Of a stretch of DNA of 64,000 bases, positions 4,036 to 14,183 are shown piece by piece. A model generated the notes under the pieces. The model was given only the letters and a program-made list of their open reading frames with translations. It was not told where the DNA came from and did no database searches. A program made the position numbers and the translations under genes. The stretch spans positions 1 through 64,000 of the forward strand of contig CALFVD010000070.1 in assembly GCA_937928005.1 (NCBI GenBank). The letters run 5' to 3'. The stretch's first letter is position 1; the number at the start of each line of letters is the position of its first letter. This DNA comes from an uncultured Neomegalonema sp. (GTDB lineage: Bacteria; Pseudomonadota; Alphaproteobacteria; Rhodobacterales; Rhodobacteraceae).

Positions 4036-4185
4036 CCTTCGCCTTTTGGAATTGAGGCCACATGGGTCGATATGCGAGATCAATTTATCGTGATTTGTCC
4101 CAATACGAAACAGTTACATAGTCCTCAAAATCAATAATCGCTCTGATTGTGTCTTTGTAGAGCAATACGCTTGGGGGAACAGACT

Positions 4186-7100
4186 ATGACTATCTACGCT
4201 AGGCCTTCTGAAACATCACAGCAAACCGGGCAGCGTTCTCGTTCTTTTGCGCAATTTTTCGGGCGCGGATTTGCCGGTTTCAAAGGCAGAGGTGCCCAAA
4301 AATCCTCGCAAGAGCAACCGCGAAGCGATCAGAAGGCCGAGAGTCGTAGTCAGAAACTCAGCGTTAACAATCGACAGGATAGCCGTCAGGGTATTGCCAA
4401 TGTTACAATCCCAGATGGAGAGAACCGGGCACGCACCAGTCGGGTGGATGGCCAACAGTTTAATCTGGGGCGTGGTGCATCAACGGCGGTGGATGGCGCG
4501 CCCGTTCTTACCGCCTCAAACAACCGTGTCGCCTTTAACAATCAGGGCAGTGCCTCCACAACCGGCGCAACAAACACCATTCAGCTTGATGGTAATAACG
4601 GTCAGGTCAACAACGGGCGTGGCGCTCAGATAGCAGCTGAAGGAACTGGTGTCGCAATCTCTGGCCAGAACAACGATGTGAATAATCGAGGCTCGATATC
4701 TGGTGACGTCAATGCTGTGAATTTCGTCAATGGTGGGCAGTCTTCCGGCAACGTGAATAACAGCGGCACCATCAGCAGCGATAGTCGCGGTGTGAACATT
4801 GGCGGCGATGGCATTAACGTCAATAATAGTGGCAGCATCGTCGGCACTGGTGATCAGCGCAATGGCACCGTTTATACAGACGCCACATCGAACAACACCC
4901 AAATCAATAATGGCCGTAACGCGGTGATCGATGCGGGCGCGGGTAATAGTGGCGCTGGGGTTGTGTTTGAGAATGGCGATACGCCTGGCGCAGCGATCAA
5001 TAGCACGCTCAACAATCAAGGCACCATTGCTGGGCGCGGCCAAGCCGCCGCCGATGTGGGGCTGGCCGGAGACGGCGTACGGATTTTCTCGCCCGTTGAT
5101 GGTACGTCCTTCAATGGGAATATCAATAACAGCGGCTCGATTACGTCCGAAAGCAATGTTGGCCCGACCGCCGGATTTCGCGTGGCGGACGGCGTGGCCT
5201 TTAATGGCCAAGTCAACAACAACCGCAGCGGTACGATCTCTGGCGCGAATAACGGTGTGTATTTTGGCGAGGGCGCACATGATGCGCAGGTCAATAACTC
5301 CGGTACGATCTCCAGCGACAGCCGTGCCGTCAATATCGATGGCACAGGGGTTCAGCTTCGCAATAGCGGCACGATTCTCGGCACAGGCGATCAGCGGAAT
5401 GGCACCGTCTATTCCGACTCCACCGCCGATAATTTCTCGGTCGATAACAACCGCAGCGGCGTGATCGACGCGGGCAAGGGTAATGCAGGCGCCGGTGTTG
5501 CACTGCAAACCGGTAGTGAAGCGGGCGATGTCGTGAATGCCGATCTGCGCAATAGCGGCTCAATCACCGGGCGGGGCCAAGCGCCTGCAACGGAGGGAAC
5601 CGCCGGGGATGGCGTGCGGATCTTTGCGGGTGCCGAAGGGGGCACGACCTTCCAAGGTGATGTGACCAATAGCGGCTCGATTACGTCCGAAAGCAATGTC
5701 GGCCCGACCGCCGGATTTCGTGTGGCGGATGGTGTCGGTTTCGATGGTACGCTCACCAACAACCGCAGCGGTACGATCTCTGGCGCGAATAACGGCGTGT
5801 ATTTTGGCGAGGGCGCACATGATGCGCAGGTCAACAACTCCGGCACAATCTCCAGCGACAGCCGCGCCGTCAATATCGATGGCACAGGGGTCGATGTCGT
5901 CAACTCGGGCCGCATTATCGGCACGGGTGATCAGCGGAATGGGACGGTCTACGCGGATAATACTGCCGATGATTTTTCCGTCACCAACACACGTACTGGT
6001 CGCATCGACGCGGGCAGAGGTAATAACGGATCGGGCGTATCGCTGCAATCCGGTGATGTCGATGGTGATGTGGTCAGCGGCTCTATCCGCAATGATGGCA
6101 AGATCAAAGGGCGTGGCGATGCCGCCGAAGGCAACACGGTCGGTGATGGCGTGCGTCTGTTCAGCGACCAAGCGAATGTTACCGTTCAAGGCAATATCGA
6201 AAACACAGGGCGCATCATCGCCTCCCGCGATTCCAATGAAGCGGCGGGGGTCAGCATTGAGAGCGGCATTGCGCTTGACGGCCAGATCATCAACCGGGGC
6301 ACCATCCGGGCAAATGAAACGGCTATTGATGCGACCGATGCGGGTGGCAGCGTGAATGTCGTCAATGCCGGGCGCATCAAGGGAGATGTCAATCTTTCGG
6401 CTGGTGATGATGTGTTCAATGGTGCCCAGGGCCGCACCAACGGCGTCATCCGGGGTGGTGAAGGCAACGATACGATTATCGGTGGACGCGGTATCGATAC
6501 CGCTGCCTATGATGACATCGACGTTTCCGTCACTGTCGATCTTGAGGCAGGCACAGCAACCCGTGAAACCGGGTTCTCACTGTCGTCGGAAAACCAACCT
6601 CTCACGTCGCTCACCACGGATCAGACGCCAGCCCAATTGGTCGATGAAGCCGCTGCGGGTAACTTCTACTACAATGTCCACACGACGGAGTTTAACGGCG
6701 GCGAAATCCGCGGACAGCTCATCCCCGTGTCGGATTTGACAGACCTGCATGGCGTTAGAACATTGACACTAAACGCAAATCTTGATGCCGCGCAGGAGCC
6801 TGGCCCACTATCGACCTCTGCCGCGACTGGCCAAGGCAGCGTTATCATCACCCAGAATGGCGATATCGTGCTCTATAACTCAACGCTCCATATTCAGGGC
6901 ATTGAGAGTTCGGAGCTTATGCCCGTGGCGGGTGTCAGTGCTATTCACCTGCATAATGCACCGGCGGGTCAGAACGGCCCTGTCATTACCGACATTGTTC
7001 AGGATGCAGGCGGTGATATCAACGGAGCGGCACAATCTGCATCGGCTGATACCGGAGATGGCGATGTCTTCAACGAAGTAATCGAAGTCGATTATCTCGA

Positions 7101-7191
7101 AAGCATCGAGCGTATTATCGGTTCGGATGATGGCGTGACTTTCGTGGGCGGTAGAACGCCAGCTGACAATGGCGGCCACCCACAATATTAG
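4186..7191 (+). CDS. Large repeat surface protein with CHRD and one RTX-like motif
   Basis: This 1001-residue acidic protein is likely secreted. Residues 1-60 are basic and glutamine-rich with no Sec signal peptide. From about 90 to 750 it is built of short Asn/Gly/Ser beta-helix motifs of the type NNSGTISSDSRAVNI, arranged in units of about 180 residues. Near 760 is one RTX-like motif (GGEGNDTIIGGRGIDTA). A CHRD-type region follows: NFYYNVHTTEFNGGEIRGQL, then a second start, LDAAQEPGPLSTS ... AIHLHNAPAGQNGPVI. The ATG at 4186 is chosen for its GGGGGA ribosome site; the frame stays open 13 codons further upstream. Absence of a signal peptide plus the RTX motif suggests type I secretion, but no exporter gene is nearby. 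The normal long RTX tail is missing and the chain stops abruptly. Function is unknown; adhesion or matrix binding is a guess. Confidence 0.8.
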   Translation: MTIYARPSETSQQTGQRSRSFAQFFGRGFAGFKGRGAQKSSQEQPRSDQKAESRSQKLSVNNRQDSRQGIANVTIPDGENRARTSRVDGQQFNLGRGASTAVDGAPVLTASNNRVAFNNQGSASTTGATNTIQLDGNNGQVNNGRGAQIAAEGTGVAISGQNNDVNNRGSISGDVNAVNFVNGGQSSGNVNNSGTISSDSRGVNIGGDGINVNNSGSIVGTGDQRNGTVYTDATSNNTQINNGRNAVIDAGAGNSGAGVVFENGDTPGAAINSTLNNQGTIAGRGQAAADVGLAGDGVRIFSPVDGTSFNGNINNSGSITSESNVGPTAGFRVADGVAFNGQVNNNRSGTISGANNGVYFGEGAHDAQVNNSGTISSDSRAVNIDGTGVQLRNSGTILGTGDQRNGTVYSDSTADNFSVDNNRSGVIDAGKGNAGAGVALQTGSEAGDVVNADLRNSGSITGRGQAPATEGTAGDGVRIFAGAEGGTTFQGDVTNSGSITSESNVGPTAGFRVADGVGFDGTLTNNRSGTISGANNGVYFGEGAHDAQVNNSGTISSDSRAVNIDGTGVDVVNSGRIIGTGDQRNGTVYADNTADDFSVTNTRTGRIDAGRGNNGSGVSLQSGDVDGDVVSGSIRNDGKIKGRGDAAEGNTVGDGVRLFSDQANVTVQGNIENTGRIIASRDSNEAAGVSIESGIALDGQIINRGTIRANETAIDATDAGGSVNVVNAGRIKGDVNLSAGDDVFNGAQGRTNGVIRGGEGNDTIIGGRGIDTAAYDDIDVSVTVDLEAGTATRETGFSLSSENQPLTSLTTDQTPAQLVDEAAAGNFYYNVHTTEFNGGEIRGQLIPVSDLTDLHGVRTLTLNANLDAAQEPGPLSTSAATGQGSVIITQNGDIVLYNSTLHIQGIESSELMPVAGVSAIHLHNAPAGQNGPVITDIVQDAGGDINGAAQSASADTGDGDVFNEVIEVDYLESIERIIGSDDGVTFVGGRTPADNGGHPQY
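4750..6240 (+). repeat. Tandem intragenic repeat, about 540-bp period
   Basis: Within the preceding gene the segment beginning near 4750 recurs near 5290 and 5830. The landmark GATCAGCG(C/G) occurs at 4852, 5389 and 5929, a period of 537-540 bp. Stretches 5221-5340 and 5761-5880 differ at only a handful of positions, mostly synonymous. The first unit is clearly more diverged. This indicates recent duplication, or gene conversion, of the last two units, and a site where copy number could vary by slippage or recombination. Confidence 0.85.
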
Positions 7192-7322
7192 TGGATCGAC
7201 CGAGACATTTGAGTTGCTTGCTCAAAGATTGTCTGTCTTACGTGAGCCGCTCAAATGTCGAGATAAGTTGATCCACCAAACCAAAATCTAGTGGGTTCGT
7301 TTCGTTAGAAACAATCCACTAG
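7189..7322. mobile_element. 134-bp TA-flanked palindromic element, copy B1
   Basis: The ends read TAGTGGAT and ATCCACTA, a terminal inverted repeat inside a possible TA target duplication. Inside, ACCGAGACATTTGAG pairs with CTCAAATGTC, and a second hairpin is formed by CTAGTGGGTT with AATCCACTAG. A second copy of exactly the same length lies at 36401-36534. The arms are nearly identical in both copies but the central 38 nt differ. The element sits exactly on the stop codon of the repeat-protein gene. Joining the flanks without the element still gives TAG, so the insertion did not create the stop. A TA duplication would fit mobilisation by an IS630/Tc1-mariner transposase, which is inference. 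Confidence 0.75.
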
Positions 7323-7347
7323 GGAACCTTGAAAGATATATGAGCTA

Positions 7348-7375
7348 TGCATCTCCGGCGTGGGCTGGGGATGCA
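7348..7375 (+). terminator. Possible weak transcription terminator
   Basis: TGCATCTCC and GGGGATGCA form a 9-bp stem with one G-U pair and a 10-nt loop, followed by GTGTTTTCG. It lies about 160 nt after the repeat-protein stop codon, beyond the B1 element. The T run is short, so termination is uncertain. Confidence 0.3.
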
Positions 7376-7454
7376 GTGTTTTCGATACTGATCCAAATAC
7401 AGTGAAACGCGATCAGGTTAAGCCGTAGGGTTTCAAGAAAGGCATGCTCTAAAA

Positions 7455-7545
7455 AGCGAATTGCGATTATCCTGAATCATCAAGCGCCATATTTTGCGCG
7501 GCTCTTGGCGTGAAATATGGCTCAGGTTTATCGCAAATGGCTATA
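7455..7545. repeat. Nested palindromic intergenic repeat, copy A1
   Basis: This 91-bp imperfect palindrome has an outer stem (AGCGAATTGCGAT with ATCGCAAATGGCT) and an inner stem (GCGCCATATTTTGCG with CGTGAAATATGGC). It is the same family as copies at 32239, 32751, 42330 and 45531. The rest of the gap, 7323-7454 and 7546-7785, shows only the weak hairpin listed separately and no convincing gene. Confidence 0.8.
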
Positions 7546-7785
7546 AGTGCGCGTCGCTCTAACATTCAGGATGCTCTATCGCGATTTGAGTATGTGTTGA
7601 ATCAGGTTTCCCTTGTCCAATGTATCGGCCCCATATGACAGGAAGTCCCGCATCTGCGAAGAGTCATTTCATGCCGCATTGCCTTGGGGGCAGCATGAGT
7701 TCTTCTTCAAACGATTGCCATGTTCCCACTTTCGATTCATCTGCGTTTCTCTACAGTCGATGCATCATCATCTGGGAGCGCACCC

Positions 7786-8373
7786 ATGTCCCTTGAGACT
7801 CTTTATATCGCTCTAGCCAATGTTCTCGATGGCCCGCAGGAGATTGAGTGTGCCGGTCGTGCCGCTCTTCTCGAAGCGGCCACCGTCGCTAGGGCGACCG
7901 CGCCTCCGATCCCTCTGCCTGATCCGTTTCAAGCGGTGATGGCCGCACCGGATGCCCATCCTGCCTGCGCCCTCGTCGCCATGGAGTCCTTTGCATGGGT
8001 GCCGCCCCAGACCTCGACCGACCCGGCTTATATCGCCCACAGCGCGCCCAAGGTGCATGTCGAGTTAGTTGGCCCAAGCGGTCTGGCGAAGTCCGATACC
8101 ATCCGCCTTGGCCTCTACGGCATGATGCCGAAGGCCGATTACGGCATCCGTACCCATCCGGCGGAGGAGACCTTTGTAATGATGGCGGGTGAAGCTTACT
8201 GGAAGCGCGGCGACGCCCCATATGCGCCCCTTCGGTCTGGCGAACGCTCTTACCATCCAACGATGCTGCCCCACGCCACCCGCACGGGGGCAAAGGCATT
8301 CCTTTCCCTCTACGTCTGGCACGGCGATATCGGAACCGAGAATTACGTCTACGCGGGCATCCCGGAAGGCTGA
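7786..8373 (+). CDS. Cupin protein resembling DMSP lyases (DddQ/DddK/DddL group)
   Basis: The 195-residue protein has a C-terminal cupin barrel like that of dimethylsulfoniopropionate lyases, which release dimethyl sulfide and acrylate. Visible motifs are RTHPAEETF at residues 122-130, GEAYWKRGDAPY at about 135-146, PHATRT with H163, and LYVWHGD. Family members use HxHxxxE plus a distal His as metal ligands and a nearby Tyr in catalysis. Here the first His is Arg122 and the position of the catalytic Tyr is Phe130; H124, E128 and H163 are kept. Activity on DMSP is therefore doubtful. The ATG at 7786 is preceded by GGGAGC; an in-frame ATG at 7720 has no such site. The gene is convergent with recG. 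Confidence 0.6.
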   Translation: MSLETLYIALANVLDGPQEIECAGRAALLEAATVARATAPPIPLPDPFQAVMAAPDAHPACALVAMESFAWVPPQTSTDPAYIAHSAPKVHVELVGPSGLAKSDTIRLGLYGMMPKADYGIRTHPAEETFVMMAGEAYWKRGDAPYAPLRSGERSYHPTMLPHATRTGAKAFLSLYVWHGDIGTENYVYAGIPEG

Positions 8374-8410
8374 GGCCGAAGATTTCGCCAACCTTCCCTT
8401 GAGAAAGAGC

Positions 8411-10501
<2,091 letters not shown>

Positions 10502-12908: not shown

Positions 12909-14183
12909 TCACCGTAGCAGCACCGGATCGAGGCCCGATCCGAAGATATGGGTGTCGATATCGAGGGCATCTTCGCGTCGAATGTGCGGTTCCGCTCCCC
13001 ATGTGTCGATCTCGTAGACGGCCAGATACCAGCGTGCGGGCATTGCCCCACATGGCCCCGCCTTCGGTGCAGCGACGAAGGCGATGATCCGAAACAAGCC
13101 AGACGGAACGCTATTTTGACCTGCCAAGGGGCGTAAAATATCAAGGCGATGCGCCGTATTCCCCGGATCAGATAGCGTGTATCCAGCGACGTCGATCCGT
13201 TCGGGCCGGGTCACGGCCACCGCGCTGCCCGCGACGGGAATACGCCGATGCGTATATCCCGCATTGCCCAGCAGACTTTCCAGATAGGCGAGCCGCTCCT
13301 CTGTACCGGCGATTCCCCGCGCAGCAAAGATATCGTCATCGAGCGGATGCAACACACTCGGATCGGGCAGCGCCCCGCCGAAATCCAGCCACCGCACACA
13401 AGACGGATCGGCCAATGCTTCGCGCACCGGGCGATACACCCGCCCCGGTTTCGGGTCCGGCGGCATCGCTAGCGCCGCACCCGTATCGGCAAACGGCCCC
13501 AGCACCAGCCCTGCCACATCGCAGCGAACGGGCACGAGCGACAGCCGCACGGAGTCACCATCATCGACGGGCACCTGCCGCGTCCGGGCGGGAATGGCAA
13601 CACTCCTTACGGTCGCGGGCGTCCTGACGACCCGCCGTTGGATCGTGCGCGTTGTTGCAGGAACCCTCTGCGATGCAGGGCAGGTGCGTTTCGCCGTCAG
13701 CACGCGGATCGAAATCGTTGCGGTCCTGCCCGGAACAGCAATGCGCCTGACGCTCGCGGGTGTATCAACCACCCTTGTGCGATGACCGCCCGTGACGGCA
13801 CCGGGATAGGATAGTCGCAGTGCCGCTCCATTATGGATGCGCCATTCGGGCTGTTTATCTGGGGTGAAGCCATAGTTTTTCACCATCTTGTAGGTCGCAG
13901 GGATAACCTGAAGCGACTCCGACGTCTCTTCTACCACCACTGTCTGCTGAACTGTCTTCATCTCGTCGCCACGGCAATGGGCGGGTTGGATCACGATGGT
14001 TTCAGAAACCGTCTGGTAGGTCGCCGGAACGATCTCCAGCCGTTCGCTCGCTGCCTCCACCACGACCGTCTTCGTCGCCCCGGCCTTCCATGCCGAAGTC
14101 TGCTCGAGCGCAAGGCACTCCCCGCCCATCGCGCGCGCCTCGCCCGCGCACAGCACCAGCGACAGAAGGAAAATCCGTTTCAT
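12909..14183 (-). CDS. Secreted protein with PATY/PAT repeats, function unknown
   Basis: This 424-residue protein starts with a clear signal peptide (MKRIFLLSLVLCAGEARA). Residues 30-210 contain imperfect repeats such as ERLEIVPATYQTVSETIVI, ESLQVIPATYKMVKN, RVVDTPASVRRIAVPGRT, RVPATTRTIQRRVVRTPAT and VRSVAIPARTRQVPV. Similar repeats occur in exported alphaproteobacterial proteins linked to peptidoglycan-binding modules. The C-terminal half has no motif I recognise. It begins 11 bp after sdaA ends and runs the same way, so it may be in that transcript, though a serine-related role is not implied. A periplasmic or cell-surface location is likely. Confidence 0.7.
   Translation of the reverse strand: MKRIFLLSLVLCAGEARAMGGECLALEQTSAWKAGATKTVVVEAASERLEIVPATYQTVSETIVIQPAHCRGDEMKTVQQTVVVEETSESLQVIPATYKMVKNYGFTPDKQPEWRIHNGAALRLSYPGAVTGGHRTRVVDTPASVRRIAVPGRTATISIRVLTAKRTCPASQRVPATTRTIQRRVVRTPATVRSVAIPARTRQVPVDDGDSVRLSLVPVRCDVAGLVLGPFADTGAALAMPPDPKPGRVYRPVREALADPSCVRWLDFGGALPDPSVLHPLDDDIFAARGIAGTEERLAYLESLLGNAGYTHRRIPVAGSAVAVTRPERIDVAGYTLSDPGNTAHRLDILRPLAGQNSVPSGLFRIIAFVAAPKAGPCGAMPARWYLAVYEIDTWGAEPHIRREDALDIDTHIFGSGLDPVLLR

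Follow-up and report, generated by a model that had tools for sequence, protein, structure and literature searches.

The gene studied here occupies positions 7786-8373 on the forward strand of the window, by which we mean the whole 64,000-nucleotide stretch of contig CALFVD010000070.1 from an uncultured Neomegalonema sp. that was analyzed. It encodes a protein of 195 amino acids, as supported by its translation, a match to the Pfam family PF16867 and a predicted structural model. The start at ATG 7786 is backed by a Shine-Dalgarno-like GGGAG (7774-7778, forward strand) 7 nt upstream and by relatives whose proteins start at this residue too; a longer reading frame from ATG 7720 is also open. 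Upstream lies the gene for a CHRD-domain protein (4147-7188), whose long, repetitive product is rich in Asn, Ser and Gly and has its CHRD matches in the C-terminal part. Downstream is the converging recG gene, followed by an aldehyde-dehydrogenase-family gene, which on reading appears to be proA, and by glyoxalase-like and serine dehydratase genes. Another gene of the window (12912-14183, reverse strand) encodes a 424-amino-acid protein with no Pfam match at 1e-5. Genes of sulfonium or betaine ("onium") metabolism were not found near the window cupin.

The motif region of the protein reads R122-T-H124-P-A-E-E128-T-F130, with H163 further on, exactly the residues named in the original prediction, which had been made from the sequence. 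The respective codons are 8149-8151 (CGT, R122), 8155-8157 (H124), 8167-8169 (E128), 8173-8175 (TTT, F130) and 8272-8274 (H163), all on the forward strand. In a sequence alignment with the DMSP lyase DddQ (4la2, residue numbering as given in PMC4437653), these five residues correspond to H123, H125, E129, Y131 and H163. Thus, among the lyase hallmarks, the second His, the Glu and the distal His, which align with metal ligands of DddQ, are kept, while R122 stands where the HxHxxxE motif has its first His and F130 at the place of the catalytic Tyr, two residues after the Glu, so that both residues are missing as predicted.

The description of the protein as a DMSP-lyase-like cupin is borne out by both family and fold. 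It matches Pfam PF16867 (DMSP_lyase) with 55.8 bits (cut-off 27), and the Pfam scan found no DNA-binding or signalling domain. NCBIfam, a library that may lack models for such cupins, gave no match for the window cupin, five His-type relatives and one relative with Arg at the first motif His. The nearest solved proteins by sequence are the DddQs 5cu1 (1.5e-10), 4b29 and 4la2, and a profile built from 30 members of the clade described below sharpened the 5cu1 match to 2e-16. AlphaFold2, run on 54 window and locus sequences, gave a model of the window cupin with pLDDT 96.7 and pTM 0.92, predicted to have the DddQ-like fold of N-terminal helices and a cupin barrel. The best VIA-align match of this model is DddQ 4la2 (Z 19.5, rmsd 2.9, 182 aligned residues), followed by the other DddQs and then by DddY (Z 13.4), RemF (12.7) and DddK (12.3); the Foldseek result is in agreement.

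The consequences of the two replacements can be judged from the characterized lyases. According to the available text of PMC4437653, Tyr120, His123, His125, Glu129, Tyr131 and His163 of DddQ all belong to the active site and are essential; the zinc ligands are H125, E129, H163 and Y131, and H123 is essential for activity. In DddW, the H81A, H83A, E87A and H121A variants are each inactive with loss of iron; H81, the proposed metal ligand at the first motif His, is such that H81A abolishes all activity, and the variants hold tenfold less iron. The same text discusses His or water as an alternative base for DddW. In the available text of PMC10686828, the Mn ligands of DddK are H56, H58, E62 and H96, and Tyr64 is the base; when Ala or Phe takes the place of Tyr64 or Tyr122, DMSOP lyase activity disappears or falls by over 90%. 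Residues W110 and F108 of DddK hold the cationic group (PMC10686828), and from their spacing W178 and Y176 of the window cupin would be the equivalents. The earlier statement that the Tyr is needed in DddK and DddQ agrees with these texts; the claim that the first His is a ligand holds for DddK H56 and the proposed role of DddW H81 but not for the zinc structure of DddQ, which names other ligands. Since the window cupin lacks two residues that DddQ, DddK and DddW need, its clade most likely performs chemistry other than that of the DMSP lyases.

A first scan of the named genomes with the single window protein retrieved no relative; an alignment query of the same genomes afterwards yielded 48 loci. 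Profile and pattern searches produced 128 distinct relatives, and the 105 whose profile match starts at position 60 or before were aligned. The tree was built from 104 rows with columns 122 and 130 removed (L063_56 was dropped for its length); it rests on few columns and has many weak forks. Arg is present at position 122 in 54 of the 104 rows, with two changes of Arg state on the tree. The window cupin falls into a clade of 48 rows (SH-aLRT 100), mostly marine alphaproteobacterial proteins, in which Arg122 is found throughout. H124 and E128 are conserved in 48/48 rows and H163 in 47/47; W71, Y111, Y119, F172, W178, Y187 and Y189 are invariant as well, Y111, F172 and Y189 in this clade only. 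We define as R-type those members of the 48-row clade that have the motif Y-G-(I/L/M)-R-(T/S)-H-(P/A)-A-(E/D)-E and a His at 163; the window cupin has this motif, H163 and clade placement.

Part of the Arg invariance among the named genomes comes from the search itself, because one of the two search patterns requires this residue. A profile search without this requirement recovered Arg in all 15 rows read of the 16 with E < 1e-45 (five of the 15 being profile seeds, and the sixteenth, G616:C42, standing outside the count), which argues that the Arg of the window cupin is not due to chance. When 390 genomes of the order were searched at E 1e-40, no further R-type member emerged, the two genomes with hits both being known already. 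In eight close pairs within the clade, dN/dS is 0.06-0.20; the window gene has no close pair, and its dS values to L006 and L054 are saturated. Thus the Arg is fixed in, and diagnostic of, a subfamily that evolves under purifying selection rather than being a loss peculiar to the window protein, and the reading of the window gene as a lone degenerate copy was dropped once the conserved clade emerged. The sequence comparisons, the signs of selection and the predicted model show that the gene encodes a folded PF16867 cupin belonging to a conserved R-type side-branch. Judged by sequence, the R-type proteins are a new variant branch among the DMSP lyase and lyase-like cupins; a literature search of titles and abstract openings, which did not reach the family paper of Lei et al. 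2018, found no named Arg-type branch. Two R-type copies, L084 (HIMB11) and L063, each contain one in-frame TAG, at codons 139 and 87, respectively, and are either pseudogenes or sequencing errors. Paired PF16867-like cupin genes lie side by side within the loci L106, L024/L053 and L020.

Column 130, the place of the catalytic Tyr, behaves quite differently in the two parts of the tree. In the 48-row clade it holds Tyr in 27 rows and Phe in 21, and in all 54 Arg rows 29 Tyr, 24 Phe and one Met, versus 48 Tyr, one Phe and one His in the 50 remaining rows. Examples are L056 of isolate EhC02, a Tyr130 member, and L071, a Phe130 member. A residue other than Tyr is therefore present in 25/54 Arg rows and in 2/50 others (Fisher p = 3.6e-7, the tree being ignored). 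Counted approximately on the tree, there are at least nine changes between Tyr and non-Tyr in the Arg part (tree length 23.9) against two in the rest (52.2), with a binomial p of 8.4e-4. Among the 48 rows found by pattern 1, in which this column is unbiased, there are 26 Tyr and 22 Phe. No alignment column stands out across the clade as a compensating Tyr accompanying Phe130: the best two candidates, columns 37 and 114, gain Tyr in 5/21 and 4/21 Phe rows, and Y119 (equivalent to DddQ Y120), Y187 and Y189 are present in Tyr130 and Phe130 members alike. The active site thus has no convincing substitute for the Tyr, and the original reading stands on this point. Once the first His has become Arg, Tyr and Phe interchange at position 130, so the Tyr hydroxyl is dispensable; of all the observations, this interchange speaks most strongly against the elimination mechanism of DddQ and DddK operating in the clade.

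The genomic context of the relatives points to sulfonium or betaine catabolism. Upstream genes of at least 110 amino acids are present at 40 of the 48 named loci, and at five of these (L062, L065, L067, L071 and L090) the gene is mttB, directly upstream on the same strand (for instance, the L065 product matches PF06253 with 701 bits). Four of the five share the order mttB-cupin-aminotransferase; since their MttB proteins are 91-95% identical (the cupins 61-67%, four pairs computed), they were counted as one arrangement. For the aminotransferase, the best match is BhcA (588.6 bits, below the cut-off of 650). The second arrangement, L090, has a more distant MttB (72-78%) and a FAD/GcvT demethylase-like gene downstream of the cupin. 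The mttB link, which was noticed post hoc, rests on these two arrangements; nine carrier genomes checked have 2-10 MTTB matches each (the window's genome has six), and by a rough estimate about 0.1 upstream mttB genes would be expected among 40 loci, so that even one is already unusual. In the Paracoccaceae MAG locus L085, a dddP gene (6653-7993; NF043017, 897.5 bits, cut-off 600) ends 8 bp before the R-type cupin gene (8001-8582), and the two may act on DMSP together. In L094, a gene of the homocysteine S-methyltransferase family is directly upstream of the cupin, so that mttB, dddP or S-methyltransferase genes take this place in 7/40 loci. A choline-dehydrogenase-like gene converges from downstream in L069 and L072, and in L082 the cupin gene is flanked by enoyl-CoA hydratase and zinc alcohol dehydrogenase genes. 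Onium neighbors are absent from most of the 48 loci, many of which have unrelated neighbors; the cupin gene often stands alone, and some copies adjoin EamA transporter genes.

A His-type sister clade (L009 type, with an HNHDADETY-like motif) was considered as a candidate DddL. This assignment, judged on gene neighbors rather than on comparison with DddL sequences, was rejected: in L043, L045 and L046, genes near the cupin look by eye like serA, serC or cysteine synthase, which would belong to serine/cysteine biosynthesis. This clade is possibly a lyase-like branch of its own with ties to serine metabolism.

At other sites, the window's genome already has known routes for DMSP, since it carries DddP (603.6 bits, cut-off 600) and DmdA (539.7 bits, cut-off 410). 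The same genome has two further PF16867 cupins, both His-type. One of them, on contig C38 (L048:809-5482), adjoins a FAD/GcvT demethylase-like gene and mttB, a further cupin-mttB association; the other, on contig C118 (L049:3148-7765), follows a choline-sulfatase gene (691 bits) of the same strand after 9 bp and has a BKACE gene nearby. According to the available text of PMC12478193, the corrinoid methyltransferases MtgBCD of marine Alphaproteobacteria act as glycine betaine demethylases, and mtgC is found in SAR116 and other groups; a word search of that text found no mention of a cupin. The named-genome search detected R-type cupins likewise in SAR116 and other mtgC-bearing groups. No link between the homarine pathway and R-type cupins was found in the literature search, which covered one paper collection.

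With middling confidence, we suggest that the window cupin does not work as a DMSP lyase by the known mechanism but is an enzyme whose substrate is a betaine, a sulfonium carboxylate or a compound formed directly from one of them. The original idea of a new activity is retained in that another activity is the best reading; the changes themselves are shared with the clade (Arg in 48/48 rows, Phe130 in 21/48) and are not peculiar to the window protein. The protein ligands left by the sequence are predicted to be H124, E128 and H163, and through them the barrel would bind one divalent metal in a site of the 2-His-1-carboxylate class, 2-His-1-Glu instead of 3-His-1-Glu, leaving more open sites on the metal than in DddK. 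Judged from the alignment, R122 would occupy the vacated ligand place and reach into the pocket, where it may bind the negative end or carboxylate of the substrate or serve as an acid/base that moves protons; for cupin dioxygenases, such proton shuttling by an Arg has been reported (PMC11264262). The invariant W71, Y119, W139 and W178 could hold the substrate, which would be small and probably cationic (onium). Whatever the reaction, be it elimination, oxidation or hydrolysis, it would proceed without Tyr as the base, unlike in DddQ and DddK, since Tyr and Phe interchange freely at 130. A bolder version, which we consider rather unlikely, makes the R-type an undescribed marine osmolyte enzyme, a naturally His-stripped 2-His-1-Glu cupin that works with MttB and folate-linked demethylases and cleaves or oxidizes a sulfonium carboxylate or a betaine. 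In this version Arg122 would stand in for the fourth ligand as well as for the Tyr base, and glyoxylate would be one product, passed to the adjacent BhcA-like aminotransferase.

The dddP gene beside one relative would fit equally with a protein that acts on DMSP itself. If three ligands are enough and Arg122 or a metal-bound water removes the alpha proton instead of Tyr, the R-type proteins could still be DMSP or DMSOP lyases, as the predicted DddQ-like fold, the retained Y119 and W178, the presence of DddP and DmdA in the host and the alternative bases discussed for DddW (PMC4437653) would allow. We consider this unlikely, because H81A inactivated DddW and its variants had tenfold less iron (PMC4437653), substitutions of Tyr64 cost DddK over 90% of its activity (PMC10686828), and the Tyr is retained in 48/50 rows of His-type relatives. 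A similarly low probability is given to a metal-dependent cupin acting on a non-onium substrate (sugar acid, keto acid or aromatic), for which the neighbors would be misleading; unrelated genes at many loci and the Z scores of 11-13 for RemF, KdgF and hydroxynitrile lyase cupins speak for it, but onium-related genes directly upstream in 7/40 loci and the lead of DddQ by about 5 Z units over the next folds do not.

The original prediction had also offered a binding protein as the alternative, and a non-catalytic protein that binds or senses onium compounds with a retained barrel and pocket would explain the loss of one ligand and the catalytic Tyr, as well as the copies that stand alone or adjoin EamA genes. 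This reading is disfavored and seems quite improbable to us, as the invariance of H124, E128 and H163 goes beyond what a binding fold needs and the protein has no DNA-binding or signalling domain. Decay of a DMSP lyase copy, to which the two altered catalytic positions and the in-frame TAG of L063 and L084 might be ascribed, is highly improbable in view of the conserved Arg, the low dN/dS, the full-length reading frame in the window and the confidently predicted fold.

An enzyme with chemistry other than DMSP lysis would matter beyond this locus. DMSP-lyase-like genes serve to estimate the ocean production of the climate gas DMS, and if the marine R-type clade is not a DMSP lyase, such gene-based counts can be inflated, the window member scoring twice the Pfam cut-off; an Arg at the first motif His is a simple residue rule that would separate the clade. 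The clade also lends itself as a natural experiment on the residue requirements of the cupin elimination mechanism, and it may supply a step still missing from the turnover of betaines or sulfonium compounds.

Among known systems, the closest are the DddQs of Ruegeria lacuscaerulensis (4la2), R. pomeroyi (5cu1) and Roseovarius nubinhibens (4b29), which resemble the window cupin in fold (Z 18.4-19.5) and length, in the ligands equivalent to H125, E129 and H163, and in the equivalents of Y120 and W178, but differ in having only 21-23% identity in the structural alignment and in the changes of H123 to Arg and Y131 to Phe. DddK of Pelagibacter (6a53) shares the core barrel (Z 12.3 over 121 residues) and the equivalents of H58, E62 and H96, whereas its ligand H56 is replaced by Arg and its Y64 by Phe, and DddK, at about 126 residues, is shorter and consists of a single barrel. 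DddW, DddL, DddY and DddU belong to the same broad cupin DMSP-lyase group; DddY is similar in fold (Z 13.4), DddW requires H81, a position occupied by Arg in the window cupin, and DddL, DddW and DddU were compared without direct alignment. As for TM1459, we take H52 to be the first motif His, removed in the engineered H52A/H58E protein, and H58 to be the third ligand place, where that protein has Glu. By its title, this protein (8hjx) has a 2-His-1-Glu layout, but it is a designed copper protein with an unrelated function. The DMSP lyase-like (DLL) cupins are reportedly PF16867 relatives without a shown role as DMSP lyases. Going by the title of Lei et al. 2018 alone, they provide the nearest label for the R-type clade.
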